A stretch of 47,880 nt of DNA from Oscillospiraceae bacterium (GTDB lineage Bacteria; Bacillota; Clostridia; Oscillospirales; Oscillospiraceae). This document shows positions 9,814 to 45,421 of the stretch, piece after piece. Where the stretch lies: positions 1-47,880 of the forward strand of contig SVLV01000010.1 in NCBI GenBank assembly GCA_015067765.1, read 5' to 3'. The notes under the pieces were generated by a model. That model did no database searches and was not told the DNA's origin. It worked only from the letters and a program-made list of their open reading frames with translations. Position numbers and translations under genes: made by a program. The first letter of the stretch is position 1; every line of letters starts with the position of its first letter.

Positions 9814-9911
9814 AACGCAGTATCCTCCTTCACAGGGCCGCTTTCGCCGCCCAAAAATCAGCGCAGAGAAAAGTGCACAGCTTCTCTCCTTGTTCACTTT
9901 GTGTCAGGTGT

Positions 9912-29364: not shown

Positions 29365-31764
29365 TCAATTGGGCTGAATGGAACTGCGGCCCAGGAGAAC
29401 GGAGGTCATCTGAACCATATCCGTAATGGTCACCTTTCCATCGCCGTTCAGGTCTGCCGCCTGGAAAGCTGCCGTAGACAGGGACGCTCTTCCCAGCAAC
29501 TGCGCCTGCAGCTGGACCATATCGGTCACGGTGCTCTTTCCGTCACCGTTCAGATCACCGGTCACCACTACAGTCAAAGTCTCTGCCACACCGCCGTTGA
29601 GGGTGCGCTCCACCACCATGCCGGTAGCGATCTGCTCATTGGTGACCGCATCACCCTGACGGATGGTCACCACATTCTTGGGGAGCAGGTCTCCCAGCAC
29701 GGTCTCTACGGAAGTCCCCAGCGGGATGGCCCGCAGGAATCCGTCCTGCGCCTTATAGGTGGGGCTGGCGATGGGCTCGTCACCGGCCAGTTCCTTGGCC
29801 TCATACTGGGCCACGAAGATGATATCACTGCTGCCCATCTTCATCCCTGCCGTATAGCCGCCCCAACCGGTAAACTCATAGTAATGGGTATTGTCGGAGG
29901 GTCTGGCGGGAACTTCGGTGGGTGCGGGGATCTCCGTTCCCTCCGTCAGCGTTCCGGAGCTTATCACAGACTGATCGTAGTTCTGGAACTGATAGGTATA
30001 CAGCTTACTGTAACGGGCGTAGATGGTAATGTCGCCGGACGGCATGATGGAGCTGGCCGTGATCTGCTCGCCGCCCTCCTTGGCCGTAAACCAGCCTACA
30101 AAGGCATAGCCCTCAAGTGTCGCTTCGGGCAAAGTGCCGTAGACCTGACCGGGCTTGACCTTGCGGCTGCCTTCGCTGACACTGCCGCCGTTGGCATCAA
30201 AGGTAACCGTCTTTTCTCCCGTAGATACGTAGAAGGGGGATTCCAGCACAAAGGTTCCGTCGGTAGGGGAGGTACTGGTGGCTGTGATGCGCAGGGTATA
30301 GTTGCCGCCGGGCAGACGACTGAAGGCCACATCGTCATCCAGCTTCTTCAGGTCATAGCTGGTGGCATTGGGACTTGCCGTTGCCGGGGTGAACGCATCC
30401 TTCCCGGCACTGTTGAGCACGGCCACCTTTACCGTCTGGATGGGGTAGGCGCAGCGCAGAGTGCCGCGGAAATAGAAGGTGGAGTTGCCCTCCTGCAGGC
30501 CGCTTTCATAGGTGGGATAGCTGGCACCGGAGAGGGACCAGCCGGACCCGGCCAGGGACAACTGCCACTGCGCGGCCTCCGCTCCGGTATTCAGCCGGCC
30601 GCCGGCAGAATAGCTGGAGGCGGTCAGATACTTTTCCGTGCCGCGGTTGAGCAGGGAGAAGCCGCTGTTGAGGTTGGCGATCTGCCACATCTGCTCGTTG
30701 CCGGTGGAGGGTTCCGCCAAAGAGACGGAGCCGTCACTGTTACCGGTCAGTCGCAGGCCGGTCACCACATTTTCAATGGTATAATATCCGCTGGCGTAAT
30801 AGGTAAAACGAAAGCGCTGCTGATCGGAATCCGCCAGAGCATTGAGGAGGATGCCGTCATCGCCGACCACTGCCGTCAGATTGGCATTCTCAGCCACCTG
30901 CAGCCGGTAAACACCCTCCGCCAAGGGGGCATCGGCATATCCGTACTGCACCAGCATCTGCTGCGCTACCGAGGGTTCATTGATCCGCAGGCGCTCATAG
31001 ACGCCGATCTGAATGCCCGAGGAGTTGCCGCTGAAATAGTACAGGGATTTCCCGGCGATGCCGTATTTTTCCGCCGTCTTGCCGCTCATCATATAGGAGC
31101 CTTCCGTGCCGACACGGCCGGACTCTGCATAGATGGCGTCAATCAGGATTCTCTCGGCCTGATTGGTAAAGCCGCCCAACGCCGTGAATGCCCGGGTGAT
31201 CACATTCTTTGCACCGCCGGTACCATGCTGCACGGCGCGGGACCAAAACACATTGCGCAGGGCAATGCTGTAGTTGTCCATGTCAAAACCCGGCACCGCA
31301 GACTCAATTCTGTCGACGATGGGATCATAATAGCCGCGGCGCACATAGTTGCGTTGGGCCTGCTCAAAGCCGGCACTGTTTTCCTCCGCCAGTTTGCGCC
31401 ACTCTGCATCAAAGTTGCTGCCATAGCCGGCACCGCCATTGTAGTAAGCTGCATGCAGACGGTCGCCGATCTGTTTATAATATGTATTTTCCGAGGCCTG
31501 GCACCACTCAAAGAAGTGCTTGGGACCATCCGATGCGCTGGCAAACTGATAGGAACCGTAGGACTTGCCGCCCAGGTCCCCGACACCGGTGGAGATATGG
31601 CCGGGACCGGAGGCCTCATATCGGGCACTGAGGGTGCCCAACAGGTCCTCCTCCTGATCGTCCGCCGCCGTGGCAAATGCCATCAGCAGACTGGTTCCGA
31701 CCAGCAGGACCAGCGCCAGAAAAACGCCTGCGATGATCCAGTTTTTATGGCGTGCAGCAGTCAT
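29365..31764 (-). CDS. Dockerin-bearing muramidase-like surface protein
   Basis: This 799-residue protein has an N-terminal signal or anchor helix (9-32). A domain at about 40-280 opens with YEASGPGHISTGVGDLGGKS, then YGSYQF, resembling the VgrG3-like muramidase domain; Glu50 is the candidate catalytic residue. A ricin-type lectin-like region (about 283-405), Listeria-Bacteroides beta repeats (from about 535: TVTFDANGG, GYAFVGWFTAKEGG) and a C-terminal dockerin (about 735-799) follow. The dockerin has two DLNGDGK calcium-loop repeats, each followed by a TDMVQ helix. GAGGAG precedes the ATG. It lies upstream of the cohesin gene in one operon, so an adjacent dockerin-cohesin pair tethering a wall hydrolase is likely. 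Confidence 0.8.
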   Translation of the reverse strand: MTAARHKNWIIAGVFLALVLLVGTSLLMAFATAADDQEEDLLGTLSARYEASGPGHISTGVGDLGGKSYGSYQFASASDGPKHFFEWCQASENTYYKQIGDRLHAAYYNGGAGYGSNFDAEWRKLAEENSAGFEQAQRNYVRRGYYDPIVDRIESAVPGFDMDNYSIALRNVFWSRAVQHGTGGAKNVITRAFTALGGFTNQAERILIDAIYAESGRVGTEGSYMMSGKTAEKYGIAGKSLYYFSGNSSGIQIGVYERLRINEPSVAQQMLVQYGYADAPLAEGVYRLQVAENANLTAVVGDDGILLNALADSDQQRFRFTYYASGYYTIENVVTGLRLTGNSDGSVSLAEPSTGNEQMWQIANLNSGFSLLNRGTEKYLTASSYSAGGRLNTGAEAAQWQLSLAGSGWSLSGASYPTYESGLQEGNSTFYFRGTLRCAYPIQTVKVAVLNSAGKDAFTPATASPNATSYDLKKLDDDVAFSRLPGGNYTLRITATSTSPTDGTFVLESPFYVSTGEKTVTFDANGGSVSEGSRKVKPGQVYGTLPEATLEGYAFVGWFTAKEGGEQITASSIMPSGDITIYARYSKLYTYQFQNYDQSVISSGTLTEGTEIPAPTEVPARPSDNTHYYEFTGWGGYTAGMKMGSSDIIFVAQYEAKELAGDEPIASPTYKAQDGFLRAIPLGTSVETVLGDLLPKNVVTIRQGDAVTNEQIATGMVVERTLNGGVAETLTVVVTGDLNGDGKSTVTDMVQLQAQLLGRASLSTAAFQAADLNGDGKVTITDMVQMTSVLLGRSSIQPN

Positions 31765-33747: not shown

Positions 33748-34134
33748 TTACACACCAGCAATGCAGGTGATCTCGAACAGATAGGGCTCAGCCACGGTGG
33801 GAGCAACCACGGTGTAGCGAGCGGGGCCCACATCCATACCCAGGAAGTAACGATCCCACACCTCATTGGCAACAGCGCGGTCCTCACGCTTGCCGATGAA
33901 GATCTGGCAGAACAGAACCTTCTCCAGGCTGGAGCCGGCCTCTTCCAGAACCTTCTTCATGTTCTCGAAAGCCTGAGTGACCTGAGCCTCCAGACCCTCC
34001 TTCAGAACCTCGTTCTTGTCCTCGCCGACCATGCCGGAGACGAACACCAGATTGCCATACTTGACAGCCTGAGAAACGTTATGAGTGGGGGTAGCGACCT
34101 CGGGGCAAAAAACCTTTTCCTTCTTGAATTCCAT
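33748..34134 (-). CDS. RidA/YjgF-family imine deaminase-like protein
   Basis: This 128-residue protein fits the Rid family, which hydrolyses reactive enamines and imines. It has the FVSGMVGED loop, the catalytic-type Arg in GPARYTVV (about 103) and Glu in YLFEITCIA (about 122). The usual G-P-Y-S near the N-terminus reads T-H-N-V-S, so it belongs to a divergent Rid subgroup. GGAAGTACAGAC precedes the ATG. It is the last gene of an operon with the two AcnX subunits, 23 bases from the small subunit. If the AcnX product is an unstable imine, RidA would complete the step. That is inference. Confidence 0.9.
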   Translation of the reverse strand: MEFKKEKVFCPEVATPTHNVSQAVKYGNLVFVSGMVGEDKNEVLKEGLEAQVTQAFENMKKVLEEAGSSLEKVLFCQIFIGKREDRAVANEVWDRYFLGMDVGPARYTVVAPTVAEPYLFEITCIAGV

Positions 34135-34157
34135 GTCTGTACTTCCTTTCCTTATGT

Positions 34158-34592
34158 TTACTTATTTTCGGCAGGCACCAGGATCTCCACAGTGCCGGCA
34201 TCGCCGTCGAGACGGATGTAGTCGCCGTCATGGATCTCTGCACAGGGATCCACGCCATCGGGGAAGTCGGCCACACAGGGACGACGGGTGTTGAAGATGG
34301 CTGCACCGCACTTGGAGTCCATCTTGGTAAACACATAGCCGATGGGGCCAACGCCATTGTACTCACTGTTGCGGAAGGTATCGGACCAGCCCAGAGAGCC
34401 GCGGCTGCAAGGCAGCACGATGATCTTGCCGGCAAAGCTGTCGCCGTAATGGACATGACCTTTTTCCACCACCACACCGGTCTTCACATCGGCACCGGCC
34501 CAGCCCACGATGCTGTCGGGGCAGACGAACGCATAACCTTCCACGGAGGGGCCCCATACGGGACGGCCCTTGATCACTTTATTCTCACTCAT
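34158..34592 (-). CDS. Aconitase X small (swivel, DUF126) subunit
   Basis: This 144-residue protein matches the swivelling domain of AcnX dehydratases. The family's Ser-containing GRGS-type motif appears as PCSRGSLGWS (about 60-69), and RPCVADFPDGVDPCAEIHDGD follows. Together with the large subunit it should form a dehydratase. Known AcnX enzymes act on cis-3-hydroxy-L-proline (bacteria) or phosphomevalonate (archaea). The specificity here is unknown. The start overlaps the large subunit stop by eight bases (ATGAGTGA), showing translational coupling. Confidence 0.88.
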   Translation of the reverse strand: MSENKVIKGRPVWGPSVEGYAFVCPDSIVGWAGADVKTGVVVEKGHVHYGDSFAGKIIVLPCSRGSLGWSDTFRNSEYNGVGPIGYVFTKMDSKCGAAIFNTRRPCVADFPDGVDPCAEIHDGDYIRLDGDAGTVEILVPAENK

Positions 34593-35904
34593 ATCTTCTC
34601 TTTACCTCCCAATAGCCGCTGACAGCAGCGTCACAGACTTCCTCATCGGTGCCGTAGTAGCCGGGGCAATCGCGCTCATCCTTGCTGCCGGTAGCCAGCT
34701 TGAAGGAGGACAGGCCCACAGACTTTGCACCCTTGGCCACATTGATGGTACGGGCGATGCAGCCGCTGGTCAGGATCTCCACGCCGCACTCCTTCAGGTC
34801 CTGAATGACATGAGCCTGCTCGGCCATAGCGTACTGAGCGATGTTGGTGAACACGCAGAAACGCACGCCTTCCTTGACCTTCTTGCCCTTCATGTAGCGG
34901 GCGATCTTGATCAGCTCCTCGGCAGAGCAGTTGGGGCAGCCGATCTGCAGGTAGTCGGCGGGGCCGGACTCCTGGCAGCAGACCTCTTCCCAGTATTCCT
35001 GCAGCATGGAGTTGGTGATGGTGAATTCTGCCACCGGCTCATGGCCGCCCATGGCCATCTCATAGGTCTGAGCCTCGGGGGACACACCCACGATCAGGCA
35101 CATCTCGCAGCCGCTGGCCACAGCCAGAGCGGTGAAGAAGGTCTTCAGCTTGATCAGGTCGGGACGCTCAAAGTCGCCGCAGATCACGGGGATCGCATTG
35201 GGGGACAGACGACGGGCCACGGCTACGCCCAGCAGATCCCAGTCGGTCTTATCCTTGGTATCGCAGGCCACGTGGAACACGTGGGTGCCGTGACGGTTCT
35301 CGGGCAGGTGCAGGCCCCACTTGGGAGCACGGCCGCAGATAGCGGAGCAGAACGTGGTGTTGCCGCCGCCGCCGTTGCCGCGGGCGCCCAGAACGGAGTT
35401 GCAGTACAGCACATTACTGGACTCGGTGGTCACGAAATACTCGCCCATCAGAGGCAGCCAGCCGGCCAGATAGGGGGCGCAGGTGGAACCGATCATTACG
35501 CCGCGATCCGCTGCATCGGAGAGGATCTGGCGGTTGTTCTCATAGAACTCCTTGGTCTGCTGAGTCCACTCCCACTGGAAGGTATCGCAGCAGTGTACGT
35601 CATCCATGACGTAGGTGCTCTCATTAAAGCTGTTGAAGGTCTCGGGATCCATATCCGGGCACTTCAGCTTGGTCTGCCAGTCGTGGTAGCCCATGGCCAG
35701 GATGTCGGGACGGTCCAGGTTGCCATCGGGGAAATCAGCGGGCTCGCAGGTGGAGCCGCAGCACAGATGGGCCTTGGTGATCGGCACCAGCTCCTCGGCG
35801 CCCAGGATCTTGGCATAGTCAATAATCTTCTGCAGAGCGACCTGCTTGGCAGCGCCGAATTCGCCATCCAGCATGCGCTGCTCATAGGGGGTCAACCGAA
35901 TCAT
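34585..35904 (-). CDS. Aconitase X catalytic (DUF521) subunit
   Basis: This 439-residue protein matches the DUF521 catalytic part of AcnX enzymes. It opens IRLTPYEQRMLDGEFGAAKQVAL, typical of the family. Cys residues likely to bind iron-sulfur or iron occur in HLCCGSTCE (about 50), GSTCAPY, YLQIGCPNCS (about 335) and TSGCIAR (about 395). ARGNGGGGN is another family stretch. The start at 35904 follows GGAGATTGCACG; the longer frame covers the promoter. It is the first gene of the minus-strand operon. It likely dehydrates a hydroxy acid or hydroxy-imino acid. Its divergent neighbours are sugar-rearranging enzymes under the same presumed operator. Confidence 0.88.
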   Translation of the reverse strand: MIRLTPYEQRMLDGEFGAAKQVALQKIIDYAKILGAEELVPITKAHLCCGSTCEPADFPDGNLDRPDILAMGYHDWQTKLKCPDMDPETFNSFNESTYVMDDVHCCDTFQWEWTQQTKEFYENNRQILSDAADRGVMIGSTCAPYLAGWLPLMGEYFVTTESSNVLYCNSVLGARGNGGGGNTTFCSAICGRAPKWGLHLPENRHGTHVFHVACDTKDKTDWDLLGVAVARRLSPNAIPVICGDFERPDLIKLKTFFTALAVASGCEMCLIVGVSPEAQTYEMAMGGHEPVAEFTITNSMLQEYWEEVCCQESGPADYLQIGCPNCSAEELIKIARYMKGKKVKEGVRFCVFTNIAQYAMAEQAHVIQDLKECGVEILTSGCIARTINVAKGAKSVGLSSFKLATGSKDERDCPGYYGTDEEVCDAAVSGYWEVKRRYE

Positions 35905-35946
35905 ATCGTGCAATCTCCTCTCATATTGTTTTGTTCTCAATTCCGC

Positions 35947-35962
35947 CTGTGGTATACACAAG
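35947..35962. promoter_or_regulatory. Candidate GntR operator in the AcnX promoter
   Basis: On the minus strand, CTTGTGTATACCACAG is an imperfect palindrome around GTATAC. It overlaps the -10 box of the AcnX promoter and resembles the perfect palindrome at 36108-36121. Confidence 0.55.
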
Positions 35963-35980
35963 TCGGCTTCTTGGAAACAA
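35951..35980 (-). promoter_or_regulatory. Promoter of the AcnX-RidA operon
   Basis: On the minus strand, TTGTTT (35975-35980) and TATACC (35951-35956) have 18-bp spacing, about 50 bases before the start codon. Confidence 0.55.
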
Positions 35981-36081
35981 TCATAGCCGCAAATTTTCGA
36001 ATTGTAAATATCTTTTTTGAAAGGGGGTTCATTTTGGTGAGTTTGCACAGTTATTTGGCCCTTCTGTTGCCAAATTGCGGC

Positions 36082-36110
36082 TTGACTTTTTGCCCCCAAT
36101 ATACTATCTT
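36082..36110 (+). promoter_or_regulatory. Promoter of the RpiB-to-PfkB operon
   Basis: TTGACT (36082-36087) and TATCTT (36105-36110) have 17-bp spacing. A TATACT at 36100-36105 is closer to consensus but too near the -35. Confidence 0.6.
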
Positions 36111-36121
36111 GTATATACAAG
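36108..36121. promoter_or_regulatory. 14-bp perfect palindromic operator
   Basis: CTTGTATATACAAG is exactly self-complementary and overlaps the -10 and start region of the plus-strand operon. It is the best candidate binding site for the GntR regulator encoded at 41929-42669. Confidence 0.7.
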
Positions 36122-36164
36122 TAAAGCACAGCGAAAATTGAACTGTGAGAAAGGATATGATTCT

Positions 36165-36605
36165 ATGAAAATCGCAATCGGAAATGACCAGCACGGCCTG
36201 GCCTACAAGCAGATGATCATGAAGACTTTCCCCGAGCATGAATATGTGGATGTGGGCTCTTACGATACCGAGCCGGTCAGCTATCCCGGCGTGGCTGAGA
36301 AGGCCGCCAAGCTGGTGGCTGACGGCACCTGCGACCGCGGCATCCTGATCTGCGGCACCGGTATCGGCATGGCTATGACCGCCAACAAGATCAAGGGCGC
36401 TTATGCCGCTGTCTGCCACGACATCTATTCCGCTCAGCGTATGATCCTGTCCAATGACGGCAATGTCCTGTGCATGGGCGCTCTGGTCATCGGTATGAAG
36501 ACCGCCGAGGAGATCGTCCGCCAGTGGCTGCCCCTGCAGTTTGATACCACCAGCGCCTCCGCCGCCAAGGTGGCTCATCTGCGCCAGATCGAGGAGAACA
36601 ACTGA
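36165..36605 (+). CDS. RpiB/LacA/LacB-family sugar isomerase-like protein
   Basis: This 146-residue protein has the ribose-5-phosphate isomerase B fold. The family motif GILICGTGIGMAMTANKIKG carries the catalytic Cys (about 66), and NVLCMGALVIG follows. Residues that bind phosphosugars in RpiB differ. The opening G-S-D-H-A-G reads GNDQHG, with Gln for the His. The R-x-H-N stretch reads RMILSN, losing the second His. So the substrate is probably not ribose 5-phosphate. The start at 36165 follows AAAGGATATGATTCT. Its stop overlaps the transketolase start by one base. It opens the six-gene operon under the palindromic operator. Confidence 0.9.
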   Translation: MKIAIGNDQHGLAYKQMIMKTFPEHEYVDVGSYDTEPVSYPGVAEKAAKLVADGTCDRGILICGTGIGMAMTANKIKGAYAAVCHDIYSAQRMILSNDGNVLCMGALVIGMKTAEEIVRQWLPLQFDTTSASAAKVAHLRQIEENN

Positions 36606-37447
36606 TGAAAGCATTTGATCGCGAGCAGCTGGAGCGTTTGGCGTTTGGCATCCGCCGCAATATCATCTCCACCATCGCCACCAATGGCGAGGGCCATGCC
36701 GGCGGCGCTCTGTCCGCCACCGATGCCATTGCCGTTTTGTACGGCGCTATCATGAACTATGACCCCGAGGATCCTCAGGGCCGCGACAAGTTCATCCTCT
36801 CCGGCGGCCACAAGTGCCTGGCTCTGTATGGCGCCATGGTGGAGCTGGGTGTGCTGCCCAAGGAGTCCCTGAAGACCTACAATCAGCTGGGCACCGTGTT
36901 CCCCGGTCATCCCGATGCCACCAAGCTGCCCTGTCTGGATTTCTCCACCGGCAGTCTGGGTCACGGCCTGCCTCTGGGCTGCGGCTATGCACTGGCCGCC
37001 AAGATGCAGGGCGCTGACTACCGCACCTATGTGCTGATGGGTGATGGTGAGCAGGGTGAGGGCAGCCTGTGGGAAGCTGCCGCCTTTGCCGCACACAAGA
37101 AGTTGGATAATCTGGTTGCCATTCTGGATGAGAACTCTCTGCAGATCAACGGCCGCACCACGGAGGTCTGCAAGGCCACCGATTTTGAGGACCGTTATGC
37201 TGCCTTCGGCTGGTCCGTCCGTGCAGTGGACGGCAACGATGTGGGTGCCCTGTACGATGCACTGGCCGCCGTTCCCTTCGAGGAGGGCAAGCCCTCCATG
37301 ATCGTCTCCAAGACCACCAAGGGTAAGGGCATCTCTTTCCTGGAGGATCAGGCCAAGTATCACCACTGGAATCCCAAGCAGGAAGAGGGCCAGCGTGCTC
37401 TGGATGAATTGGACGCCATTGCGGCAGAAAGGGGCTGGCAGGAATGA
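36605..37447 (+). CDS. Transketolase N-terminal (thiamine-diphosphate) subunit
   Basis: This 280-residue protein is the N-terminal half of a split transketolase. It holds the thiamine diphosphate and metal-binding pattern GDGEQGEGSLWEAAAFAAHKKLDNLVAILDEN (about 140-170). FPGHPD, and GSLGHGLPLGCGYALAAKM, are further family motifs. The sequence suits the split transketolases of Clostridia, which may act on sugar phosphates other than those of the pentose pathway. It overlaps the RpiB-like stop and the C-terminal subunit start (ATGA). It works with the next gene product as one enzyme. Confidence 0.93.
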   Translation: MKAFDREQLERLAFGIRRNIISTIATNGEGHAGGALSATDAIAVLYGAIMNYDPEDPQGRDKFILSGGHKCLALYGAMVELGVLPKESLKTYNQLGTVFPGHPDATKLPCLDFSTGSLGHGLPLGCGYALAAKMQGADYRTYVLMGDGEQGEGSLWEAAAFAAHKKLDNLVAILDENSLQINGRTTEVCKATDFEDRYAAFGWSVRAVDGNDVGALYDALAAVPFEEGKPSMIVSKTTKGKGISFLEDQAKYHHWNPKQEEGQRALDELDAIAAERGWQE

Positions 37448-38367
37448 AAGATCCCAGAAAAGCATTTGAAATGAAGCTGGTGGAACTGGCCCGTAAGGAT
37501 CCCCGGATCGTGGCCGTTTCCTGCGACTCCTGCTCCGGCGGTGGCCTGAGCGCCTTCTTCCAGGAGTTCCCTGAGCGCAGCATCGAGACCGGCATCAGCG
37601 AGCAGAACGCTGTGAGCCTCTGCGCCGCTTTGGCCCGCCAGGGTCTCAAGCCCGTTCTGGTCATCATCAACCCCTTCCTGACCATGCGCGCCTATGAGCA
37701 GGTCCGCGATGATGCCGGTTACATGAACACCAATGTGGTCATGGTCGGTTCCGGCGGCGGTCTGGCCTATTCCACTTTGGGTTCCACCCACATTGCTGTG
37801 GAGGATGTGGGCCTGATGCGTTCCGTACCCCATCTGACCATCCTGGCTCCCGGCGATGGTGACGAGGTGGAGTTCGCTCTGGAGCAGGCTCTGTCTGTGG
37901 ATGGCCCCGTCTATATCCGTATGCCCCGTCAGGCCCGCAATGCTCCTGTAGAGGGTGAGCGGAAGATGGAGCTGGGTAAGGCTGAAGTGCTGGCCGAGGG
38001 CAGCGAGGCTCTTCTGTGCGCCTACGGTCCCAGCGCCGAGGAGGCCATGAAGGCCTGCCGTATCCTGCAGGAACAGGGCAAGGCCATCACGGTGCTGAAT
38101 TTCACCACCGTCAAACCTCTGGATGCCGAGGCCGTTCTGGCCCACACCAAGGGCAAGAAGGCCGTCTTCACTCTGGAGGAGCACGCCCCCGTGGGTGGTC
38201 TGGGTTCCGCTGTGGCCGAGGTACTGGCTGAGGCCGGTGCCGGCGTGCCGCTGCACCGTCTGGCTGTGCCCGAGGGCGCCAAGCAGACCGGTCCCTATCC
38301 CGAGTTGGTTGCTTACTACGGTCTGGATGGCGAAAGTGTCGCCAAGCAGATCGCAGAAGTTCTGTAA
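37444..38367 (+). CDS. Transketolase C-terminal (pyrimidine-binding) subunit
   Basis: This 307-residue protein is the second half of the split transketolase. It has the pyrimidine-binding stretch RSIETGISEQNAVSLCAALARQG (about 40-63, with the cofactor-activating Glu) and a C-terminal domain with KAVFTLEEHAPVGGLGSAV. The overlap with the N-terminal subunit gene (4 bases) ensures equal synthesis. A thiamine-dependent two-carbon transfer in a catabolic pathway is expected. The acceptor and donor are not readable from sequence. A weak internal promoter may lie after it (38373-38401). Confidence 0.93.
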   Translation: MKDPRKAFEMKLVELARKDPRIVAVSCDSCSGGGLSAFFQEFPERSIETGISEQNAVSLCAALARQGLKPVLVIINPFLTMRAYEQVRDDAGYMNTNVVMVGSGGGLAYSTLGSTHIAVEDVGLMRSVPHLTILAPGDGDEVEFALEQALSVDGPVYIRMPRQARNAPVEGERKMELGKAEVLAEGSEALLCAYGPSAEEAMKACRILQEQGKAITVLNFTTVKPLDAEAVLAHTKGKKAVFTLEEHAPVGGLGSAVAEVLAEAGAGVPLHRLAVPEGAKQTGPYPELVAYYGLDGESVAKQIAEVL

Positions 38368-38372
38368 ATCTA

Positions 38373-38401
38373 TTGCGCCCCGCAAGAAAAAAGTGTAAAA
38401 T
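38373..38401 (+). promoter_or_regulatory. Possible internal promoter
   Basis: TTGCGC (38373-38378) and TAAAAT (38396-38401) have 17-bp spacing in the 81-base gap before the transaldolase-like gene. It could boost the last three genes of the operon. Confidence 0.4.
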
Positions 38402-38448
38402 ATTGTAATGTAGACGAACCGCTACAGAGTATGAAAGGAGTAATCGTC

Positions 38449-39795
38449 ATGACTGTAAATTATCGTTCCCAGGGCGAGGGCACCATGGGTGTCAGCTTCC
38501 CCCTGTGCGCACTGAATGCTCCCGCCGCCCGCGGCGATGAGGATTACGTCGCCCGTGTTAAGAACCTGGCTCTGACCGCCGAGCAGTATGCTCTGCTGAA
38601 CGGCACCGTGAAGTATGTGGGTGTGACCCCCCGCTTCCGCGATGTGATCAAGACCTTCGATGTTCCCGCCGGTGAGACCCCCGCCGGTTTCCGCATCGAG
38701 AGCACCCTGCAGGCCGATGGTCTGCTGGAGGTGGACCTGGTCCGTGATATCTCCTATGATAAGAACGGCATGAAGCGTCCCACCCGCATGATCTTCTCCG
38801 CTGACTCCGCCAACCCCTATGAGGTGGCTCCCATCGCCCCCCTGCTGGGTAACCTGACCTGCAACCCCGGCATCGTGTACGACCTGTTCATCAATAATCC
38901 CCAGGCCAATGTGGGCGGTCTGTTCAAGACCCGCGAGGAAGTCATGGGTGAGCTGGGCCGCATCCTGGGCCCCGGCTGCGATATCAGCGTTGAGCTGAAC
39001 AACCCCTTCGAGAAGGACTTCAACAAGATCCTGGAGGAGTGCGAGCAGTTCAAGGAGATGCTGTCCGAGTACCGTCTGGTGGTGAAGGTTCCCCACACCG
39101 GCCCCGTGAACGCCGATAACGTCCACGAGCTGCTGGAGGGTGACAAGCGCTTCTCCAAGCGTTACAACCAGGGTTCCACCGCCGACGCTCTGGCCGGCCA
39201 CAACCTGGCTCTGAAGCTGCGCGAGCACGGCTACCGCATCAACTACACCCTGATGTTCGAGCCCTATCAGACCGCTATGGCTCTGCAGGCCAAGCCCTAC
39301 TTTATCAACAGCTTCGTCCGTCACCGCGCCAAGCTGTCCGAGGTCATGAAGCGCCTGGTCAGCTTCTTTGAGATGACCGGTGACCGCAAGTACCTGGAAG
39401 AGCTGCGCAAGGAGCTGCTGGCTGCCGACATGCTGCACAAGGGTGAGGCTGACTGCGACCTGCTGGAGGTCCTGCGCATCGCTAAGGATTCCCTGGCATA
39501 CCGCAACTACAACAATGCCGAGGGTTCCGACGGTCTGGACGGCGTGCGCCACAACCTGCGCCTGCTGCGTCAGAACAACCTGCCCGATACCCGCCTGATT
39601 ATCTGCTCCATGGAGGGCGACTACAACTATCCCGATATCGACAAGCTGATGGCAGATCCCGAGTATGCCGATATGATCGATCGTATCGTCATCACTGCCG
39701 AGCCTCAGTATCTGGCCCGCTTCACCAGCACCAACCAGGTGGTTTCCTACCAGAGAAGATTCATGAACGCCGTCAACAACGACAGCAAGAAGTAA
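38449..39795 (+). CDS. Transaldolase-like protein with extra N- and C-terminal domains
   Basis: This 448-residue protein is not a standard family member. Its middle (about 145-290) reads like the transaldolase/fructose-6-phosphate aldolase barrel: NPGIVYDLFINNPQAN, then LVVKVPHTGPV with a Schiff-base-type Lys, then GYRINYTLMFEPYQTAMAL and YFINSFVRHR. Known transaldolases of this class are 210-330 residues; here about 140 residues precede and 150 follow the barrel. The N-terminal part is strand-rich, and the C-terminal part is helical with no known domain. I start at the ATG at 38449, after AAAGGAG. An aldolase or transaldolase role on a pathway intermediate is inferred from motif and neighbours. 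Confidence 0.7.
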   Translation: MTVNYRSQGEGTMGVSFPLCALNAPAARGDEDYVARVKNLALTAEQYALLNGTVKYVGVTPRFRDVIKTFDVPAGETPAGFRIESTLQADGLLEVDLVRDISYDKNGMKRPTRMIFSADSANPYEVAPIAPLLGNLTCNPGIVYDLFINNPQANVGGLFKTREEVMGELGRILGPGCDISVELNNPFEKDFNKILEECEQFKEMLSEYRLVVKVPHTGPVNADNVHELLEGDKRFSKRYNQGSTADALAGHNLALKLREHGYRINYTLMFEPYQTAMALQAKPYFINSFVRHRAKLSEVMKRLVSFFEMTGDRKYLEELRKELLAADMLHKGEADCDLLEVLRIAKDSLAYRNYNNAEGSDGLDGVRHNLRLLRQNNLPDTRLIICSMEGDYNYPDIDKLMADPEYADMIDRIVITAEPQYLARFTSTNQVVSYQRRFMNAVNNDSKK

Positions 39796-39811
39796 GATCG
39801 GGGAGGACACT

Positions 39812-40708
39812 ATGGATAAGAAACTGATGGGCGTATTTGCGCCGATCTCCACTCCCTTTACCACCGAAGGCAAGGTGGACTATGAGGGTCTGGCTGCCAA
39901 CGTCAAGCGCTATGCCGCTGCCGGTCTGAAGGGCTATCTGGCCCTGGGCTCCAACGGTGAAAACAAGAGCCTGTCCAACGAGGAGAAGCTCCGCGTTCTG
40001 GAAACCATCGTTCAGAACAAGGGCGCCGATCAGACCGTTATGGCCGGCTGCATCTTTGAATCCACCATCGAGACCATCGAGATGGGCCGTGAGATGTGCA
40101 AGCTGGGGGCCGACTTCCTGACGCTGCTGCCTCCCTGCTATTTCAAGAAGCAGATGACCGACGACGTGCTGCTGCGCTACTTCTCCGATGTGGCCGATGC
40201 CGTCAGCGTTCCCTGCCTGGTTTACAACGCCCCCCAGTATGCCGGCGGCGTTGGCCTGAGCCCCAAGCTGATCCGTCGCTGCGCCGATCACCCCAACATC
40301 GTTGGTGTGAAGGACAGCTCCACCGGCAACATGGAGAGCATCCTGTTCGCCGTGAAGGATAAGCCCAACTTCACCGTGATGGCAGGCTCCGTCAACAACT
40401 TCTTTACCGCAATGACCATGGGCGGCGCCGGCGGTGTGCTGTCCCTGTCCAACTCCTTCCCCGAGATCACCGTGGAGCTGTATGACCTTCTGGCTGCCCA
40501 GAAGTGGCCCGAGGCCATTGCCCTCAACACCCGTCTGCTGGAGATCAACCGTGTCATCGGCGGCGCCGGCGGTGTACCTGCCGTGAAGGCCGCTATGGAT
40601 ATGAACGGTCTGGTGGGCGGTGAACCCCGTCTGCCTCTGCTGCCTCTGACTGAGGCACAGAAGGAGGACCTGAAGGCCAAGATCGTTGGCTTCGGTCTGC
40701 TGAACTGA
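39812..40708 (+). CDS. Dihydrodipicolinate synthase/N-acetylneuraminate lyase family aldolase
   Basis: This 298-residue enzyme has the class I aldolase barrel of the DapA/NanA family. Visible motifs are GSNGE (about 48-52, pyruvate carboxylate contact), YNAPQY with the conserved Tyr (about 138), and IVGVKDSS with the Schiff-base Lys (about 166). Family members cleave or dehydrate 2-keto-3-deoxy acids or condense pyruvate. Its place next to a PfkB kinase and a split transketolase suggests a catabolic 2-keto-acid aldolase, not lysine synthesis. GGGAGG precedes the ATG. It lies 17 bases from the upstream gene, in the same operon. Confidence 0.9.
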   Translation: MDKKLMGVFAPISTPFTTEGKVDYEGLAANVKRYAAAGLKGYLALGSNGENKSLSNEEKLRVLETIVQNKGADQTVMAGCIFESTIETIEMGREMCKLGADFLTLLPPCYFKKQMTDDVLLRYFSDVADAVSVPCLVYNAPQYAGGVGLSPKLIRRCADHPNIVGVKDSSTGNMESILFAVKDKPNFTVMAGSVNNFFTAMTMGGAGGVLSLSNSFPEITVELYDLLAAQKWPEAIALNTRLLEINRVIGGAGGVPAVKAAMDMNGLVGGEPRLPLLPLTEAQKEDLKAKIVGFGLLN

Positions 40709-40746
40709 TCACCAACCAAATTATTTATAATTGGAGGAAGCAAACT

Positions 40747-41817
40747 ATGGCAAAGTATGATTTTATGAGCTTCGGTGAGGCAATGGTCCGCTTCACCCCT
40801 CCCGGACATGACCGTCTGGGCCAGGCAGAAGAGCTGCAGCTGGGCATTGCCGCCGCTGAGCTGAACTGCTGCGTCAACATCTCCAACCTGAGCCGCAAGC
40901 TGCTCAAGCCCCAGCTGAAGACCGCCTTCGTCACCAAGATGGTGGATGCATGGGATGGCGATTACATCATCAAGCATGCTCAGATGCACGGCGTTGATAT
41001 GTCCAACGTGGTCGTGATGCCCTACGACAAGATCGGTCGTAACGGCCGTAACGGCAAGTGCTTCATCGAAGTGGGTATCGGCCCCCGTCCCAGCTATCAG
41101 ACCTATGACCGCGGCCATTCCGCTGTTGCCCGCATCCAGCCCGGCGACATCGATTGGAAGAACGTTCTGGATACCCGTTGGTTCCACTCCACCGGCATCG
41201 TGACCGCCGTCGGCGAGCACACCGCCACCGAGGTTCTGGCTGCTCTGAAGGCCGCCAAGGAGAACGGTGCTACCACTTCCTTCGACCTGAACTACCGTCA
41301 CACTCTGTGGAGCCAGGAAGCCGCTCAGGCCGCCATGGTGGAGCTGATGCCCTACATCGATGTCATCATCGGTAATGAGGAAGACTTCGCTACCATGCTG
41401 GGCATCAAGGCCGACAACACCGATGAGAACTACTCCAAGATCGATCCCATGTGCTACAAGAAGGTAGCCGAGAAGGTCATGGAGAAGTATCCCAACGTCC
41501 AGGTGGTTGGTAACTCCCTGCGTGAGGTCACTTCCGCTTGCCTGAACAACTGGCAGTGCGTCATGATGACCCGTAACGGTTACTTCGTCTCCCGCAAGTA
41601 CATGAACATCGAGATCTATGACCGCGTGGGCGGCGGTGACTCCTTCGCCTCCGGCCTGATCTGGAACCTGCTCAACGGCAAGCCCGAGCAGGAGTGCATC
41701 GACTTTGCCGCTGCTTACTCCGCTCTGTGCCACACCATCCGCAACGACTGGAACCTGGTCACCACCGAGGAAGCTTACGACGTCATGAAGGGCGGCTCCG
41801 CCCGCGTGAAGCGCTAA
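40747..41817 (+). CDS. PfkB-family carbohydrate kinase
   Basis: This 356-residue kinase belongs to the ribokinase/PfkB family. It opens YDFMSFGEAMVRFTPP, like 2-keto-3-deoxygluconate kinases. The closing signature is VGGGDSFASGL, with the catalytic Asp and anion hole (about 296-306). FDLNYRHTLW and IIGNEEDF are central family stretches. A KDG-type substrate is plausible given the adjacent keto-acid aldolase, but not shown. TTGGAGGAAGC precedes the ATG. It is the last gene of the plus-strand operon, followed by two terminators. Confidence 0.9.
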   Translation: MAKYDFMSFGEAMVRFTPPGHDRLGQAEELQLGIAAAELNCCVNISNLSRKLLKPQLKTAFVTKMVDAWDGDYIIKHAQMHGVDMSNVVVMPYDKIGRNGRNGKCFIEVGIGPRPSYQTYDRGHSAVARIQPGDIDWKNVLDTRWFHSTGIVTAVGEHTATEVLAALKAAKENGATTSFDLNYRHTLWSQEAAQAAMVELMPYIDVIIGNEEDFATMLGIKADNTDENYSKIDPMCYKKVAEKVMEKYPNVQVVGNSLREVTSACLNNWQCVMMTRNGYFVSRKYMNIEIYDRVGGGDSFASGLIWNLLNGKPEQECIDFAAAYSALCHTIRNDWNLVTTEEAYDVMKGGSARVKR

Positions 41818-41838
41818 GCTGTCACAGGATAACTCCAC

Positions 41839-41870
41839 AGGGAGGGCACCGATGGTGCCCTCCCTGCTTT
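41839..41870 (+). terminator. Terminator of the six-gene operon
   Basis: 12-bp perfect stem (AGGGAGGGCACC and complement) with a three-base loop, then GCTTTTCC. Confidence 0.88.
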
Positions 41871-41881
41871 TCCGAAGCAAC

Positions 41882-41920
41882 AAAAAGGGTCCGTATTCCA
41901 ATGGAATACGGACCCTTTTC
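41882..41920. terminator. Terminator of the GntR gene, bidirectional
   Basis: 17-bp perfect stem (AAAAGGGTCCGTATTCC and complement) with a three-base loop and T runs on both strands. It separates the operon from the convergent regulator gene. Confidence 0.92.
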
Positions 41921-41928
41921 TCTTGTTT

Positions 41929-42669
41929 TCACAGTTCCATGGTGATCTTGATCTTCTCCCCACGGAAAACCACCTTGCTGTACTCAAAGGTGCGGCCTTC
42001 GGCATCCATGATCTGATCCCGCAGCAGCAAAAGCGGCTGACCGGTAAAGATATTCAACAGATTGGCTTCCTCCGGATTGGCCGCCACGGACTCCAGTGTC
42101 TCCACCGCCCGAGCGCGGTTCAGCCCATACTCCCGGCTCAGAATGGTGCACAGCTGCTCACCGCTGAGATCATACTGATCAATCCCGGGGCAGTAGGCCT
42201 CCGGCAGGTAGGAAATATGGATGCTGAGCGGCTCCCCCTTCAGGTAGCGCAGACGCCGCAGCACATAGACGCTGGGATCCGCCAGTCCGGGGAAGTGCTT
42301 CATCAGCTTCCGGTCCATGGTCTCCTTGCCGATGGAGATCAGCTTGGTGGAAACCTCATATCCCATCTGCTCCAGCTGCTCCCGGATGCCTGCATAGGAC
42401 AGGGAGTGGGCCACGATTTTGGGTTCGGACACATAGGTACCCTTACCGGGCACACGGAACAACAGCCCCTCCTGCACCAGTTTGGTGATCACATTGCGCA
42501 CAGTGGTGCGGCTCACTTTATAGATGGCACTCAGCTCATTCTCCGAGGGAATCACAGAGCCCGGAGCCCACTCCTTGGTCTCCAGCTGCTTGCAGATCAT
42601 CTCCTCAATTTGCGTGTGCAAGGGCTTGCCATTGGTTTTGTCAAGGGCGTGCAATCCAACACGGTCCAT
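41929..42669 (-). CDS. GntR-family regulator, UTRA subfamily, likely regulator of the adjacent operons
   Basis: This 246-residue regulator has a GntR winged helix (about 15-80). IPSENELSAIYKVSRTTVRNVITKL and LVQEGLLFRVPGKGTYVSEP are near-consensus. A UTRA ligand domain follows (about 95-245). GGAGG precedes the ATG at 42669; the longer frame has no ribosome site. It lies convergent to the RpiB-to-PfkB operon, and its own promoter contains a TGTATACA core like that of the two divergent operons. I infer that it represses the operons and itself, released by a pathway sugar phosphate or acid. Confidence 0.92.
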   Translation of the reverse strand: MDRVGLHALDKTNGKPLHTQIEEMICKQLETKEWAPGSVIPSENELSAIYKVSRTTVRNVITKLVQEGLLFRVPGKGTYVSEPKIVAHSLSYAGIREQLEQMGYEVSTKLISIGKETMDRKLMKHFPGLADPSVYVLRRLRYLKGEPLSIHISYLPEAYCPGIDQYDLSGEQLCTILSREYGLNRARAVETLESVAANPEEANLLNIFTGQPLLLLRDQIMDAEGRTFEYSKVVFRGEKIKITMEL

Positions 42670-42728
42670 GGCTTTAACCTCCAACGAAATTATCTTCGAA
42701 ACGGGAACGCAAAATCTCCCGGCTTGTT

Positions 42729-42736
42729 TGTATACA
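42729..42736. promoter_or_regulatory. TGTATACA core at the GntR gene promoter
   Basis: A perfect 8-bp palindrome just downstream of the -10 box of the regulator's promoter. It shares the TGTATA core with the operators at 35947 and 36108, suggesting autoregulation. Confidence 0.5.
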
Positions 42737-42745
42737 TATAGAGAT

Positions 42746-42865: not shown

Positions 42866-43858
42866 TCAGCTTACCGCTTTTCGGGCAAAGGAATTATCCA
42901 CCAGCTGTCCAAAGTCCACCCAATCCTTCCGCTCCAGTTCGCCGGCCTGTTCCATCACGGTCTCCAGCCGCTCCAGTGCCGCCTGCTCCATCACAGGGGT
43001 TGCGTTCCAGGCGTCGATCTCCCGATGACGGGCCGTCACCTTCTCCAGCACCTCCAGAGAGGTATCCGGGAACTGGTCGGCGATGGCCTCCGCCACCTCC
43101 CGATCACTGTGGGTGGCGATCCACTTCTGGGCACGGGCGATGGCGTTGGTAAAGCCTTGAACCACATCGGGGTTCTGCTCCAAATAGCTGCGGTTGGCAA
43201 AGTAGGCGGTATAGGGGATCTCACCGCTCTCTGTGCCGATGGAACAGAGCACATATCCCTTGCCGGCCAGTTCCACCTCCGTGGCGGTAGGTTCAAAGAG
43301 CGCTACATAGTCCCCGTGGCCGCCGGTAAATGCACCGGCCATCATATTGAACTGCACGGAGGTGTCCACCACCGCATCCACATGGGGCTCCACTCCGTTG
43401 AGACGCATCACATACTCCAGCGTCATCTCCGGCACTCCGCCGGCGCGGCCGCCGATGACGGTCTTTCCCCGCAAATTCTCCCAGGAAAAGGTCTCCTGGG
43501 TGCGCCCCACCAGGAAAGATCCATCCCGCTTGGTCAGCTGCGCGAAAATGACAGGAGCATCCTCTTTCCCCTGGTTGTGTACATAGATGGCAGCCTCCGG
43601 ACCGGCCAGCCCAATATCGGATTGCCCGGACACCACTGCCGTCATCACCTTGTCGGCTCCACCACCGTTGGTCAATTCCACCGTCAGTCCTTCCTGGGCA
43701 AAGAAGCCCTGACTCATGGCCACATACTGCGGTGCATAAAACACAGAATGGGTAACCTCATTGAGTCTGACCACCTGGTTTTCCTGCTTTGTACCGCAGC
43801 CACTCAGGGCAGACAGCAGCATCAGCAGGGCACAGACACCGGCAAATACTTTTTTCAT
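42866..43858 (-). CDS. NitT/TauT-type ABC substrate-binding lipoprotein
   Basis: This 330-residue protein has a lipoprotein signal with lipobox LSGCG (Cys about 21). It has the NMT1/SsuA-like binding fold: YAPQYVAMSQGFFAQEGLTVEL, then SGQSDIGLAGPEAAIYV, and LRGKTVIGGRAGGVPEMTLEYVM. Members bind sulfonates, taurine, nitrate, bicarbonate or thiamine precursors. The specificity here is unknown. The start at 43858 begins the signal; GGGGGT lies upstream. It overlaps the permease stop by four bases and is the last gene of the operon. Confidence 0.9.
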   Translation of the reverse strand: MKKVFAGVCALLMLLSALSGCGTKQENQVVRLNEVTHSVFYAPQYVAMSQGFFAQEGLTVELTNGGGADKVMTAVVSGQSDIGLAGPEAAIYVHNQGKEDAPVIFAQLTKRDGSFLVGRTQETFSWENLRGKTVIGGRAGGVPEMTLEYVMRLNGVEPHVDAVVDTSVQFNMMAGAFTGGHGDYVALFEPTATEVELAGKGYVLCSIGTESGEIPYTAYFANRSYLEQNPDVVQGFTNAIARAQKWIATHSDREVAEAIADQFPDTSLEVLEKVTARHREIDAWNATPVMEQAALERLETVMEQAGELERKDWVDFGQLVDNSFARKAVS

Positions 43859-44670
43859 GGTATAACCCCCCAGAATCGATTCAAATATTTCTCCGCCCAC
43901 AGCACCAGGCGGTACATCACAACTGCCGCCGCTGCCAGCAGCAGTACGCTGGTCATCACCAGATCCATATTAAATACCTGCGATCCATAGACGATCAGAT
44001 ATCCCAGACCGGCTCTCGACACCAAAAACTCTCCCATAATCACGCCCACCCATGAAAGACCCACATTGACCTTCAAGGTGTTCAGTAGGGTGGGGTAGTT
44101 GGCAGGAAACACCAACAGCCACAGAATCTGCCCGCGGCTGGCATTGAGGGTGCGCATCAGCCGGATCTTCTCCGGATCCGTACCGAGAAAGCCCTGATAC
44201 ATGGAGAGAATGGTGACAATCAGGGAGATGGCCAGCGTCATCACAATGATGGAGCCCATCCCCGCTCCCATCCAAACGATAAAAATCGGCCCCAACGCCG
44301 TTTTGGGCAGGGCGTTGAGCACCACCAGATAGGGATCCAGAATCCGAGCCAAATCCTCGGACCACCACATGGCGATGGCCACCAGCGTCCCCAGTAGGGT
44401 CCCCGCCAGAAATCCTACCACCGTCTCCAGACAAGAGGTTGCGATATGCAACGGCAGTTCTCCGGTGCGGCAGAGATTGAGGAAGGTCTGCACCATCCGG
44501 CTGGGACTGCTGGTCAAAAAGCCGTCTGACAGCCCCACATGTGTACTCAGCTCCCAGAACCCGAACACGCCTACCAACAGCAGAATCTGCCAGATCCGGA
44601 TGATTCTGCGCCGCTTGCGACGTTGGGCCAGCCACTGCAGCCGACCGGGTGACGGCGCGTTTTCATGCAT
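43855..44670 (-). CDS. NitT/TauT-type ABC permease
   Basis: This 271-residue protein has a basic start (RKRRRIIR), then about six membrane helices. The permease loop that contacts the ATPase reads EKIRLMRTLNASRGQILWLLVFPANYPTLLNTLKV, close to the EAA motif. LSWVGVIMGEFLVSRAGLGYLI is characteristic of the SsuC/TauC-type permeases. It overlaps the ATPase gene by eight bases and the binding-protein gene by four, so the three are tightly coupled. Confidence 0.92.
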   Translation of the reverse strand: MHENAPSPGRLQWLAQRRKRRRIIRIWQILLLVGVFGFWELSTHVGLSDGFLTSSPSRMVQTFLNLCRTGELPLHIATSCLETVVGFLAGTLLGTLVAIAMWWSEDLARILDPYLVVLNALPKTALGPIFIVWMGAGMGSIIVMTLAISLIVTILSMYQGFLGTDPEKIRLMRTLNASRGQILWLLVFPANYPTLLNTLKVNVGLSWVGVIMGEFLVSRAGLGYLIVYGSQVFNMDLVMTSVLLLAAAAVVMYRLVLWAEKYLNRFWGVIP

Positions 44671-45421
44671 GGGTATTCAGCTCCTTCCAAATGGCGTTGA
44701 AAAAGGTATGGAAAGCCTCGGTATCCCGCCGGGCCAGCGGATCCATCTGCCACAATCCATCCATATGAAAGTCCGCCTGCACCACCGCCGGGCGATGACT
44801 CAGCACCAACACCCGGTCGGACATACTGATGGCCTCGGAAATATCATGGGTCACCAGCAGAGCGGTCTTGTGTTCCTGCCGAATGATCTGCCAAATATCG
44901 GAAGATACACTGAGCCTGGTCTGATAATCCAGCGCAGAGAACGGCTCATCCAACAGCAGGATCTTCGGATTCGTAGCCAGCGTCCGGATCAGTGCGCAGC
45001 GCTGCCGCATCCCGCCAGATAACTGACTGGGCCGCATCTGCGCGAAATCTGCCAGTCCATAGCGGTCCAACAACCGCCGTACCTGCGCAAACTGCTCCTC
45101 CGTCCGCTGCCGGTGCAGAGTTAACCCCAGGGTCACATTGTCCCAAATAGTACGCCACTCAAAGAGTTGATCCCGCTGGGGCATAAAGCCGATTTTTGGT
45201 GTCGGACCGCAGACCGGCTCTCCGTCCACGGCAATACTGCCGCCGAAGAGGGGCTCCAGCCCTGCGATGGCGGAGAGTAGTGTGGATTTTCCACAGCCGG
45301 AGGGTCCCACAATGCTGCAAAACTCCCCCTCTGCCATGGAAAACGAGATATCCCGCAGGGCTTCTACCTCCCCCTCGGGAGCTTGATAGACAAAAGCCGC
45401 CTGTTTCAGTTCAATCAGCAC
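44663..45421 (-). CDS. NitT/TauT-type ABC transporter ATP-binding protein
   Basis: This 252-residue ATPase has Walker A GPSGCGKST (about 39-47), the signature LSGGMRQRCALIRTL (about 132-146), Walker B ILLLDEPFSALD (about 154-165) and the switch His in VTHDISEA. It powers the importer with the two downstream genes. The start is GTG at 45421, with AAGGAGG seven bases upstream. An ATG two bases earlier opens a two-codon frame (ATG TGC TGA) that is not the true start. Confidence 0.92.
   Translation of the reverse strand: MLIELKQAAFVYQAPEGEVEALRDISFSMAEGEFCSIVGPSGCGKSTLLSAIAGLEPLFGGSIAVDGEPVCGPTPKIGFMPQRDQLFEWRTIWDNVTLGLTLHRQRTEEQFAQVRRLLDRYGLADFAQMRPSQLSGGMRQRCALIRTLATNPKILLLDEPFSALDYQTRLSVSSDIWQIIRQEHKTALLVTHDISEAISMSDRVLVLSHRPAVVQADFHMDGLWQMDPLARRDTEAFHTFFNAIWKELNTHA

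Follow-up and report, generated by a model that had tools for sequence, protein, structure and literature searches.

A putative two-module, GntR-repressed catabolic regulon joining AcnX and Rid to a set of sugar enzymes in an Oscillospiraceae bacterium

Positions 33748 to 42669 of a 47,880-nucleotide stretch of DNA (contig SVLV01000010.1 of assembly GCA_015067765.1, from an Oscillospiraceae bacterium of gut type), the whole of which was analysed and is called the window below, hold a gene cluster that we read as a catabolic regulon of two modules repressed by a GntR-type protein, with the aconitase-family dehydratase AcnX and a Rid protein acting on a 2-amino-3-hydroxy sugar acid; we judge the chances of this reading to be about even. 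On the minus strand, the genes for Rid and for the small and large subunits of AcnX form a set that diverges from plus-strand genes for an RpiB-like isomerase, the two halves of a split transketolase (TktN and TktC), a transaldolase-like protein (TAL), a DapA-family aldolase and a PfkB-family kinase, and the GntR gene converges on that of PfkB. At three junctions neighbouring open reading frames (ORFs) share 8, 1 and 4 bases, which supports tight coupling of the genes. An earlier note on this DNA, made from its letters alone, had described this gene content, its strands, the two divergent operons, the convergent regulator and the tight coupling, and ORFs and domain matches bear it out; its nine enzymes are nine genes but only seven enzymes, because AcnX and transketolase take two genes each. 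The window is contig C12 of a 1.54-Mb genome that is 79% complete.

In the pathway that we infer, with its reactions, step order, substrate and regulator binding, AcnX would act as a two-subunit iron–sulfur dehydratase of a 3-hydroxy acid, which is most likely a 2-amino-3-hydroxy sugar acid, and Rid would hydrolyse the resulting enamine or imine to a 2-keto-3-deoxy acid and ammonia. PfkB, which resembles 2-keto-3-deoxygluconate (KDG) kinase, and DapA, a class I 2-keto acid aldolase by family, would then yield pyruvate and a three-carbon unit, a task that in two sibling species would fall to a 2-keto-3-deoxy-6-phosphogluconate (KDPG) aldolase and another KDG-type kinase. The RpiB-like isomerase, the split transketolase and the FSA-type TAL may, on the model of the sulfo-transketolase route, move two- and three-carbon units from an unphosphorylated sugar to glyceraldehyde-3-phosphate or a similar acceptor, which the kinase and aldolase step, since it yields a three-carbon unit, would supply. 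The GntR regulator would sit on palindromes at the promoters and be released by the substrate or an intermediate. Our first guess at the substrate is a 2-amino-2-deoxyhexonate (hexosaminate).

This proposal is carried by the company that AcnX and Rid keep elsewhere. Matches to the window AcnX below E 1e-200 occur in three of 32 genomes of the genus (the window's own, G018 at 87% identity and G002 at 72%), with some AcnX match at E 0.001 in 11 of the 32; across the family, at E 1e-60, four of 350 genomes have one, namely the window's, G002, G897 (91%) and G1032 (38%). In a tree of 45 large-subunit rows, 40 of them different and five duplicates, the AcnX of the window, G897, G018, G002 and a locus labelled Candidatus Flavonifractor merdavium (L029) form one group on a long branch, supported at 100/100. 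In all five, the distance between Rid and AcnX is about 1.3 kb (centre to centre; at most 1.4 kb); among the other 36 distinct AcnX loci, most of which have flanks of no more than 1.5 kb, Rid lies within 1.7 kb in one and at 4.4 kb in another. Neither G018 nor G002 has TAL, and their TktC relatives are 26–37% identical, none above 37%. In G002 (locus L021) the large and small AcnX genes are followed on the same strand by Rid, Eda and KdgK, and an IclR-like gene, with one of the alanine-dehydrogenase family behind it, diverges from them; in G018 (locus L020) IclR, Ald, EamA and a racemase-family gene precede the AcnX–Rid set, from which the genes for Eda, KdgK and a solute-binding protein of family 5 diverge. 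Eda passes the cut-off of the 4-hydroxy-2-ketoglutarate/KDPG aldolase subfamily (170.3 against 156.05). KdgK matches the kinase half of an aldolase–kinase fusion model with a score of 580 (the cut-off of 700 is set for the whole fusion) and is the only match to the window PfkB in each genome. Eda and the window DapA belong to different Pfam families, so that what AcnX and Rid share is a partner function: a KDG-type kinase together with cleavage of a 2-keto-3-deoxy(-phospho) acid. A KDG-type kinase and a keto acid aldolase are present in all five AcnX–Rid genomes or loci, those of G897 in an intact operon copy 39 kb away. The kinase and aldolase partners in the two sibling species are new evidence for breakdown of an unusual sugar acid or amino sugar acid, which the earlier note had suggested and which is the best reading here also.

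Evidence that the two sets answer to one switch comes from their promoters. The shared palindromes noticed earlier stand at all three promoters, those of AcnX, RpiB and GntR (Table 1), at positions relative to the −10 elements that would suit a repressor; sigma-70-like promoter matches, by consensus only, number nine in the region against 4.2 expected. Palindrome matches with at most two mismatches number six in the window against 1.74 expected, and one of 100 shuffles reaches six, a count that takes both strands of two sites and is modest evidence when taken alone. The comparison between loci says more: the core TGTATATACA occurs in the 350 bp before TAL, RpiB, TktN, AcnX or GntR in 26 of 81 loci, which are related and hence not independent, and the best of 19 composition-matched palindromes reaches one locus. 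Thirty core sites fall in these upstream regions, which make up 4.4% of the sequence, and 18 elsewhere, several of the latter preceding DeoC, class II aldolase or HAD-type genes of the same clusters. The core is found in 15 of the 27 loci that carry a relative of the window GntR. In L029 it precedes a solute-binding protein gene (4976), the AcnX–RpiB divide (7662) and a racemase-family gene (14628), and in G897 it precedes the same transporter and Asp/Glu-racemase-family genes. The transporter gene of L029 encodes a family-5 solute-binding protein of the oligopeptide-type ATP-binding cassette (ABC) class, 75% identical to that of L020. Transport and racemisation thus probably belong to the pathway. 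Loci L020 and L021 have no operator core near the genes examined, and IclR is present instead.

Is the cluster, then, one pathway? About 85,000 species genomes were scanned with a TAL alignment, which found 177 relatives, and the neighbours of the best 80 were analysed. Within 9 kb of TAL (tblastn, E 1e-20) these 80 loci have TktN in 30, TktC in 28, GntR in 25, RpiB in 17, DapA in nine, PfkB in seven, and AcnX and Rid in one each; many of the loci end at contig edges, and flanks of 4 kb or more on both sides are present in 44. The sole full match is L029, with the whole set in the same order at 78–96% identity. Where a DapA of more than 55% identity is present, PfkB follows it (seven of seven). 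Among relatives, a search of 40 genomes found TAL itself in the window's own and in no other; in the order it is present in four of 295, that one included. In the genome G897, a single contig 99% complete, the matches to the AcnX, Rid, transporter, GntR and racemase-family genes are essentially full-length, and beside its AcnX the plus-strand operon is reduced to remnants (L139:17905-18787; RpiB residues 2–45, TktC 66–109, PfkB 211–356). A complete copy lies about 39 kb away (L168:5106-11607; RpiB 78%, TktN 79%, TktC 63%, TAL 78%, DapA 69% and PfkB 88% identical). Its gene order is unchanged, a GntR gene (64%) converges on it, and two operator cores stand before RpiB; the 19.5 kb examined there hold no AcnX match. 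The six genes and GntR are therefore a unit able to stand without AcnX, and G897 keeps both parts. The earlier note had taken the nine genes for a single pathway, and had named homologous clusters without AcnX and RidA as what would speak against it; AcnX and Rid lie near TAL in only one of 80 loci, the G897 operon has no AcnX beside it, and G018 and G002 have AcnX–Rid without TAL, so that one fixed nine-enzyme pathway is rejected as stated. The uncharacterised catabolic regulon of that note survives, as two sets that are inherited separately.

The same facts raise the possibility that the cluster holds two catabolic units for different, co-occurring compounds, with nothing but a regulator and an intergenic region in common, which would be compatible with other readings of each part. 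The absence of AcnX within 9 kb in 79 of 80 TAL loci, the lack of TAL in G018 and G002, and the AcnX-free operon of G897 with its own GntR are what it would predict. However, DapA and PfkB of the sugar operon supply just those kinase and aldolase functions that partner AcnX–Rid in L020 and L021, and the same full arrangement recurs in the window and L029; we regard separate units as unlikely, if a serious contender.

The regulon reading leaves the nature of the acid to be argued. In L039 (labelled Peptococcaceae) a galactonate dehydratase (NCBIfam 337.8 bits, cut-off 311) is encoded upstream of a 2-hydroxyacid dehydrogenase-like gene, followed by TAL, DapA, a second 2-hydroxyacid dehydrogenase-like gene and PfkB, and this sugar-acid dehydratase takes the place that AcnX–Rid holds in the window, a point in favour of the main reading. 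In four further loci labelled Bacteroidales or Bacteroidetes (L065, L067, L080 and L087) the order is TAL–DapA–SerA–PfkB, with neither galactonate dehydratase nor AcnX–Rid in the stretch examined. AcnX might also dehydrate a plain, nitrogen-free aldonate to a 2-keto-3-deoxy acid, with Rid and the racemase serving another purpose; the galactonate dehydratase of L039 and the KDG-type kinase and KDPG aldolase partners would fit this. The adjacency of Rid in all five members of the clade, and the racemase-family gene behind an operator in L029 and G897, argue otherwise, and a plain aldonate seems to us rather improbable. Rid falls short of the TIGR00004 model of archetypal RidA (64.8 against 106.25). 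A conserved arginine is described as essential for imine hydrolysis in the Rid superfamily (PMC4433059). We take it to be Arg106 of the window protein, which aligns with an arginine in all five solved Rid proteins compared and points to a potential to hydrolyse imines.

AcnX itself has the features of a type II heterodimer, with separate large and small genes, AcnX and swivel domains and three cluster cysteines; Cys143, Cys324, Cys383, Glu162 and Lys403 (numbering of the large subunit counts one codon before the start) are invariant in the 13 AcnX compared. The tyrosine four residues beyond Lys403 is missing in the five clade members and present in the other eight, and the five share an insertion of about 13 residues in the 50s–60s. 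Might its substrate be hydroxyproline or dihydroxyproline, as in characterised AcnX, with a cyclic imine as product and a 4-hydroxy-2-oxo acid that DapA would cleave? DapA is nearest to human 4-hydroxy-2-oxoglutarate aldolase, and a 38%-identical AcnX (L131) lies near an FAD oxidoreductase of the DAO family and a DHDPS-family gene, a neighbourhood that resembles hydroxyproline clusters. But the single-chain NCBIfam model of cis-3-hydroxyproline dehydratase gives 172.1 and 32.2 bits against a cut-off of 700, and KDG kinase and KDPG aldolase would have no obvious role. The residues reported to contact cis-3-hydroxyproline in the solved enzyme are Trp35, Ser70, Thr72 and Asp203 (PMC8184944). With an offset of 10 between chain and paper numbering that we deduced, the equivalents of Trp35 and Ser70 are kept in the window enzyme, Thr72 is replaced by glycine and Asp203 by cysteine, the last in a weakly aligned segment of 7.7 bits. 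We hold a hydroxyproline-type substrate to be improbable, and the least likely of these alternatives. The region of the phosphate-binding residues of phosphomevalonate dehydratase (AcnX IIb), Gly48-Val49-Ser50, Asn53 and Asn79 aligns weakly, at 13.4 bits.

Several findings weigh against an amino sugar acid regulon as we propose it. The AcnX clade comprises only five sequences from one bacterial family, and the amino-group-binding residues of hydroxyproline-type AcnX are not kept, so that the amino group of the substrate is argued from Rid and the racemase family. Distant AcnX relatives adjoin methyltransferase or oxidase genes. The exact core TGTATATACA is missing upstream of the examined genes in 12 of the 27 loci with a GntR relative, so that those regulators either recognise some other site or bind these genes in a different way. 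Other contigs of the window's genome carry a homologue of the binding protein (69%) and five racemase-family copies. The earlier note had proposed a search for conserved transporters in homologous neighbourhoods, and these are found behind an operator in L029 and G897, but the homologue in the window's own genome has no operator-like site; for the racemases there, the sole site is a core with one mismatch lying 71 bp before the first of three tandem genes, and the 19.5-kb stretch around it holds three other near-matches. Finally, the intact G897 copy, 39 kb from AcnX, fits two independent units equally well.

The three tandem racemase-family genes of the window's genome lie at L157:10163-12629, and the two others on contig C18 (L159). 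Among the distant relatives, both 39–44% identical to the window AcnX, that of L129 lies near an MTTB-family methyltransferase and that of L130 near a B12-binding protein, L130 also carrying two racemase-family genes. A plasmid collection gave no TAL match; its AcnX matches, in 160 records, are all below 60% identity, and of three regions inspected one is unannotated and the others have distant AcnX among unrelated genes.

The enzymes of the sugar module show changes at their phosphate sites. Columns of the transketolase motif, placed by alignment to the split enzyme 6yaj and by E. coli numbering, read R5-G32-F78-G104-R162 (R-G-F-G-R) in the window. TktC rows were 34 from 30 loci, the lower-identity copy of each of four two-copy loci being set aside post hoc; in all 30 module copies the His position is never His, and a nearby Asp position never Asp. 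Of the four set-aside copies, those of L049, L054 and L058 have both residues; L090_1, a distant paralogue of 26% identity, lacks both. Serine occupies the Ser position in 17 of the 30 and alanine in two of the three second copies just named, and arginine stands at the last Arg position in nine of the 30. Only the His and Asp changes are thus uniform in the module. Transketolases of known structure are described as binding phosphate by an RSFHR motif, and sulfofructose transketolase as having RAFDR (PMC11659671). The window motif matches neither, so that both an ordinary transketolase of phosphorylated substrates and a sulfofructose transketolase are set aside. Set against a single canonical reference, the other RpiB of the genome (L162), the RpiB-like proteins have another residue in place of His in all 18 readable cases and in place of one Arg in 18 of 19; all 19 have Lys for a second Arg, a mild change, and all 19 keep the catalytic Cys. 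The window protein scores below TIGR01120 (121.3 against 138.65), above PRK05571 (146.1 against 135) and TIGR00689 (113.4 against 88.3), and, against that single reference, departs from the canonical DH and GGRHxRR positions of ribose-5-phosphate isomerase B. The loss of phosphate-binding positions in both enzymes suggests that the module takes an unphosphorylated or otherwise decorated sugar.

TAL passes the PF00923 gathering score (Table 1), and its Lys219, which we take to be the Schiff-base lysine, is invariant in 32 aligned sequences; phmmer matches up to E=1 are only 4mu9 and 1vpx, and no solved sulfofructose transaldolase (8BC4). A sulfoquinovose pathway of isomerase, split transketolase and transaldolase is thereby rejected, on this and the differing motif. 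After the human enzyme, the solved protein nearest to DapA is YagE (122.5 bits), a probable 2-keto-3-deoxygalactonate aldolase; the nearest to PfkB is a KDG kinase, although PfkB lies under the NCBIfam equivalog cut-offs listed. The two look like a 2-keto acid aldolase and a KDG-type kinase. None of the ten proteins has an FGGY domain, as the apulose kinase of the D-apiose transketolase pathway would.

The module of RpiB-like isomerase, split transketolase, TAL and GntR, with its core TGTATATACA, occurs in several phyla, in genomes labelled Clostridia, spirochaetes, actinobacteria, Bacteroidota and Planctomycetes. Clustering of neighbouring ORFs in 84 loci (the 80, three further, of which L006 repeats L091, and the window) gave DeoC in 28, FGGY kinase in 20, class II aldolase in 17 and HAD-type genes in 15; these counts are lower bounds, since greedy picking of the longest ORF took antisense ORFs in GC-rich loci (the window and L029), a problem that leaves the tblastn counts unaffected, and the DeoC, FGGY kinase and class II aldolase families were checked for one member each. 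Widespread clusters of TAL and split transketolase, with the operator (L050, L052, L056, L059 and L083) or with none seen (L064, L073, L074 and L095), also carry DeoC in as many as four tandem copies, along with genes for FGGY kinase and class II aldolase and others of PHP and HAD type. TAL also stands beside DeoC in apparent nucleoside clusters (L071, L075, L079, L084, L085, L086, L088 and L098), where phosphopentomutase, a BMP-type ABC transporter, deaminase and phosphorylase were named by eye and no transketolase match occurs in the stretch examined. In L027, L045 and L089 it lies near dihydroxyacetone-kinase genes (Dak1 confirmed in L027, the others by clustering), hinting that TAL may make or use dihydroxyacetone.

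Table 1. Features of the cluster, in window coordinates.
Feature	Position	Strand	Evidence or remark
Rid-family imine/enamine deaminase, 128 aa	33748-34134	-	PF01042 84.7 bits
AcnX small subunit (swivel domain), 144 aa	34158-34592	-	PF01989 53.1 bits; Ser66 aligned with catalytic Ser of solved AcnX
AcnX large subunit, 439 aa	34585-35904	-	PF04412 309 bits; three Cys, Glu, Lys invariant in 13 AcnX; own clade 100/100
Operator-like palindrome TGGTATACACAA, 1 mismatch, upstream of AcnX	35950-35961		18 bases downstream of a sigma-70-like -10
Perfect palindrome TTGTATATACAA	36109-36120		overlaps -10 of RpiB promoter match
RpiB/LacAB-family isomerase, 146 aa, altered phosphate-site positions	36165-36605	+	PF02502 156.6 bits
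Split transketolase N-terminal subunit (TktN)	36605-37447	+	PF00456 161 bits
Split transketolase C-terminal subunit (TktC), Gly104 replacing phosphate-binding His	37444-38367	+	PF02779/PF02780
Transaldolase/FSA-superfamily class I aldolase (TAL), 454 aa, Lys219	38431-39795	+	PF00923 32.2 bits, cut-off 27
DHDPS-family 2-keto acid aldolase (DapA)	39812-40708	+	165.6 bits to 3s5n (4-hydroxy-2-oxoglutarate aldolase)
PfkB-family kinase, KDG-kinase-like	40747-41817	+	224 bits to KDG kinase 2afb
Terminator-like hairpin between PfkB and GntR, 17 pairs	41883-41919	+	7 such sites found against 5.9 expected
GntR/HutC-type (UTRA) regulator	41929-42669	-	PF00392, PF07702
Operator-like palindrome TTGTATACATAT, 2 mismatches, upstream of GntR	42728-42739		6 bases downstream of a sigma-70-like -10

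Elsewhere in the window, an NMT1/SsuA-type ABC transporter beyond GntR (42866-45421, minus strand) and an alanine-dehydrogenase family gene (46602-47717, plus strand; 65% identical to its L020 counterpart) are candidates for a link to the cluster. A multi-domain protein with VgrG3-like C-terminal, Listeria-repeat, ricin-type lectin and dockerin domains is encoded at 29365-31764 (minus strand), and an enolase-superfamily protein at 8584-9897 (minus strand), for which the best NCBIfam model is galactonate dehydratase at 157.8, far under the cut-off of 311. Rfam at gathering scores and tRNA scans gave no matches in the window.

How does this system compare with those already known? The window enzyme shares with characterised AcnX the family and the catalytic Ser, Glu, Lys and cluster cysteines, but differs in its clade, the lost amine-binding residues and tyrosine, the insertion and the gene partners. 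D-Glucosaminate is degraded by pyridoxal phosphate (PLP) enzymes, a dehydratase or a 6-phosphate ammonia-lyase, with the net reaction proposed here, from amino sugar acid to 2-keto-3-deoxy acid and ammonia. The window would use an iron–sulfur AcnX with Rid instead of PLP. D-Glucosaminate degradation is described in PMC9529869. Like the window, the sulfo-transketolase pathway (SqwGH and SqwI, compared by their description in PMC11659671) has a split transketolase of altered phosphate motif and an isomerase acting on unphosphorylated sugar, but the window has R-G-F-G-R rather than RAFDR, and DapA, PfkB, AcnX and Rid in addition. The D-apiose pathway likewise has a catabolic two-gene transketolase (AptA/AptB, also compared by description; PMC13001218), but with an FGGY kinase that the window operon lacks. 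All the enzyme families are known; as far as seen, the AcnX–Rid–kinase–aldolase unit and the proposed unphosphorylated-sugar module appear undescribed, no account of either or of the cluster having been found in the open PMC literature, judged mostly by titles and the openings of abstracts.

Bacterial AcnX types IIc–IIf were stated in 2023 to have unknown functions (PMC10040528). We suggest tentatively, and as doubtful when taken whole, that this AcnX clade with Rid is a PLP-free iron–sulfur dehydratase-deaminase for 2-amino-2-deoxyaldonates, which would be a first function for an unassigned bacterial branch of AcnX type II, and that the isomerase–transketolase–aldolase set is a widespread GntR-controlled route for unphosphorylated sugars. 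The clade lacks the hydroxyproline signature, and its operon partners point to a concrete substrate class for bacterial AcnX. The cluster joins two separately inherited enzyme sets under what appears to be one switch, and could reveal the role of an unassigned branch of the aconitase family, while the conservation of the sugar module and its operator across phyla suggests a common sugar route in anaerobes.

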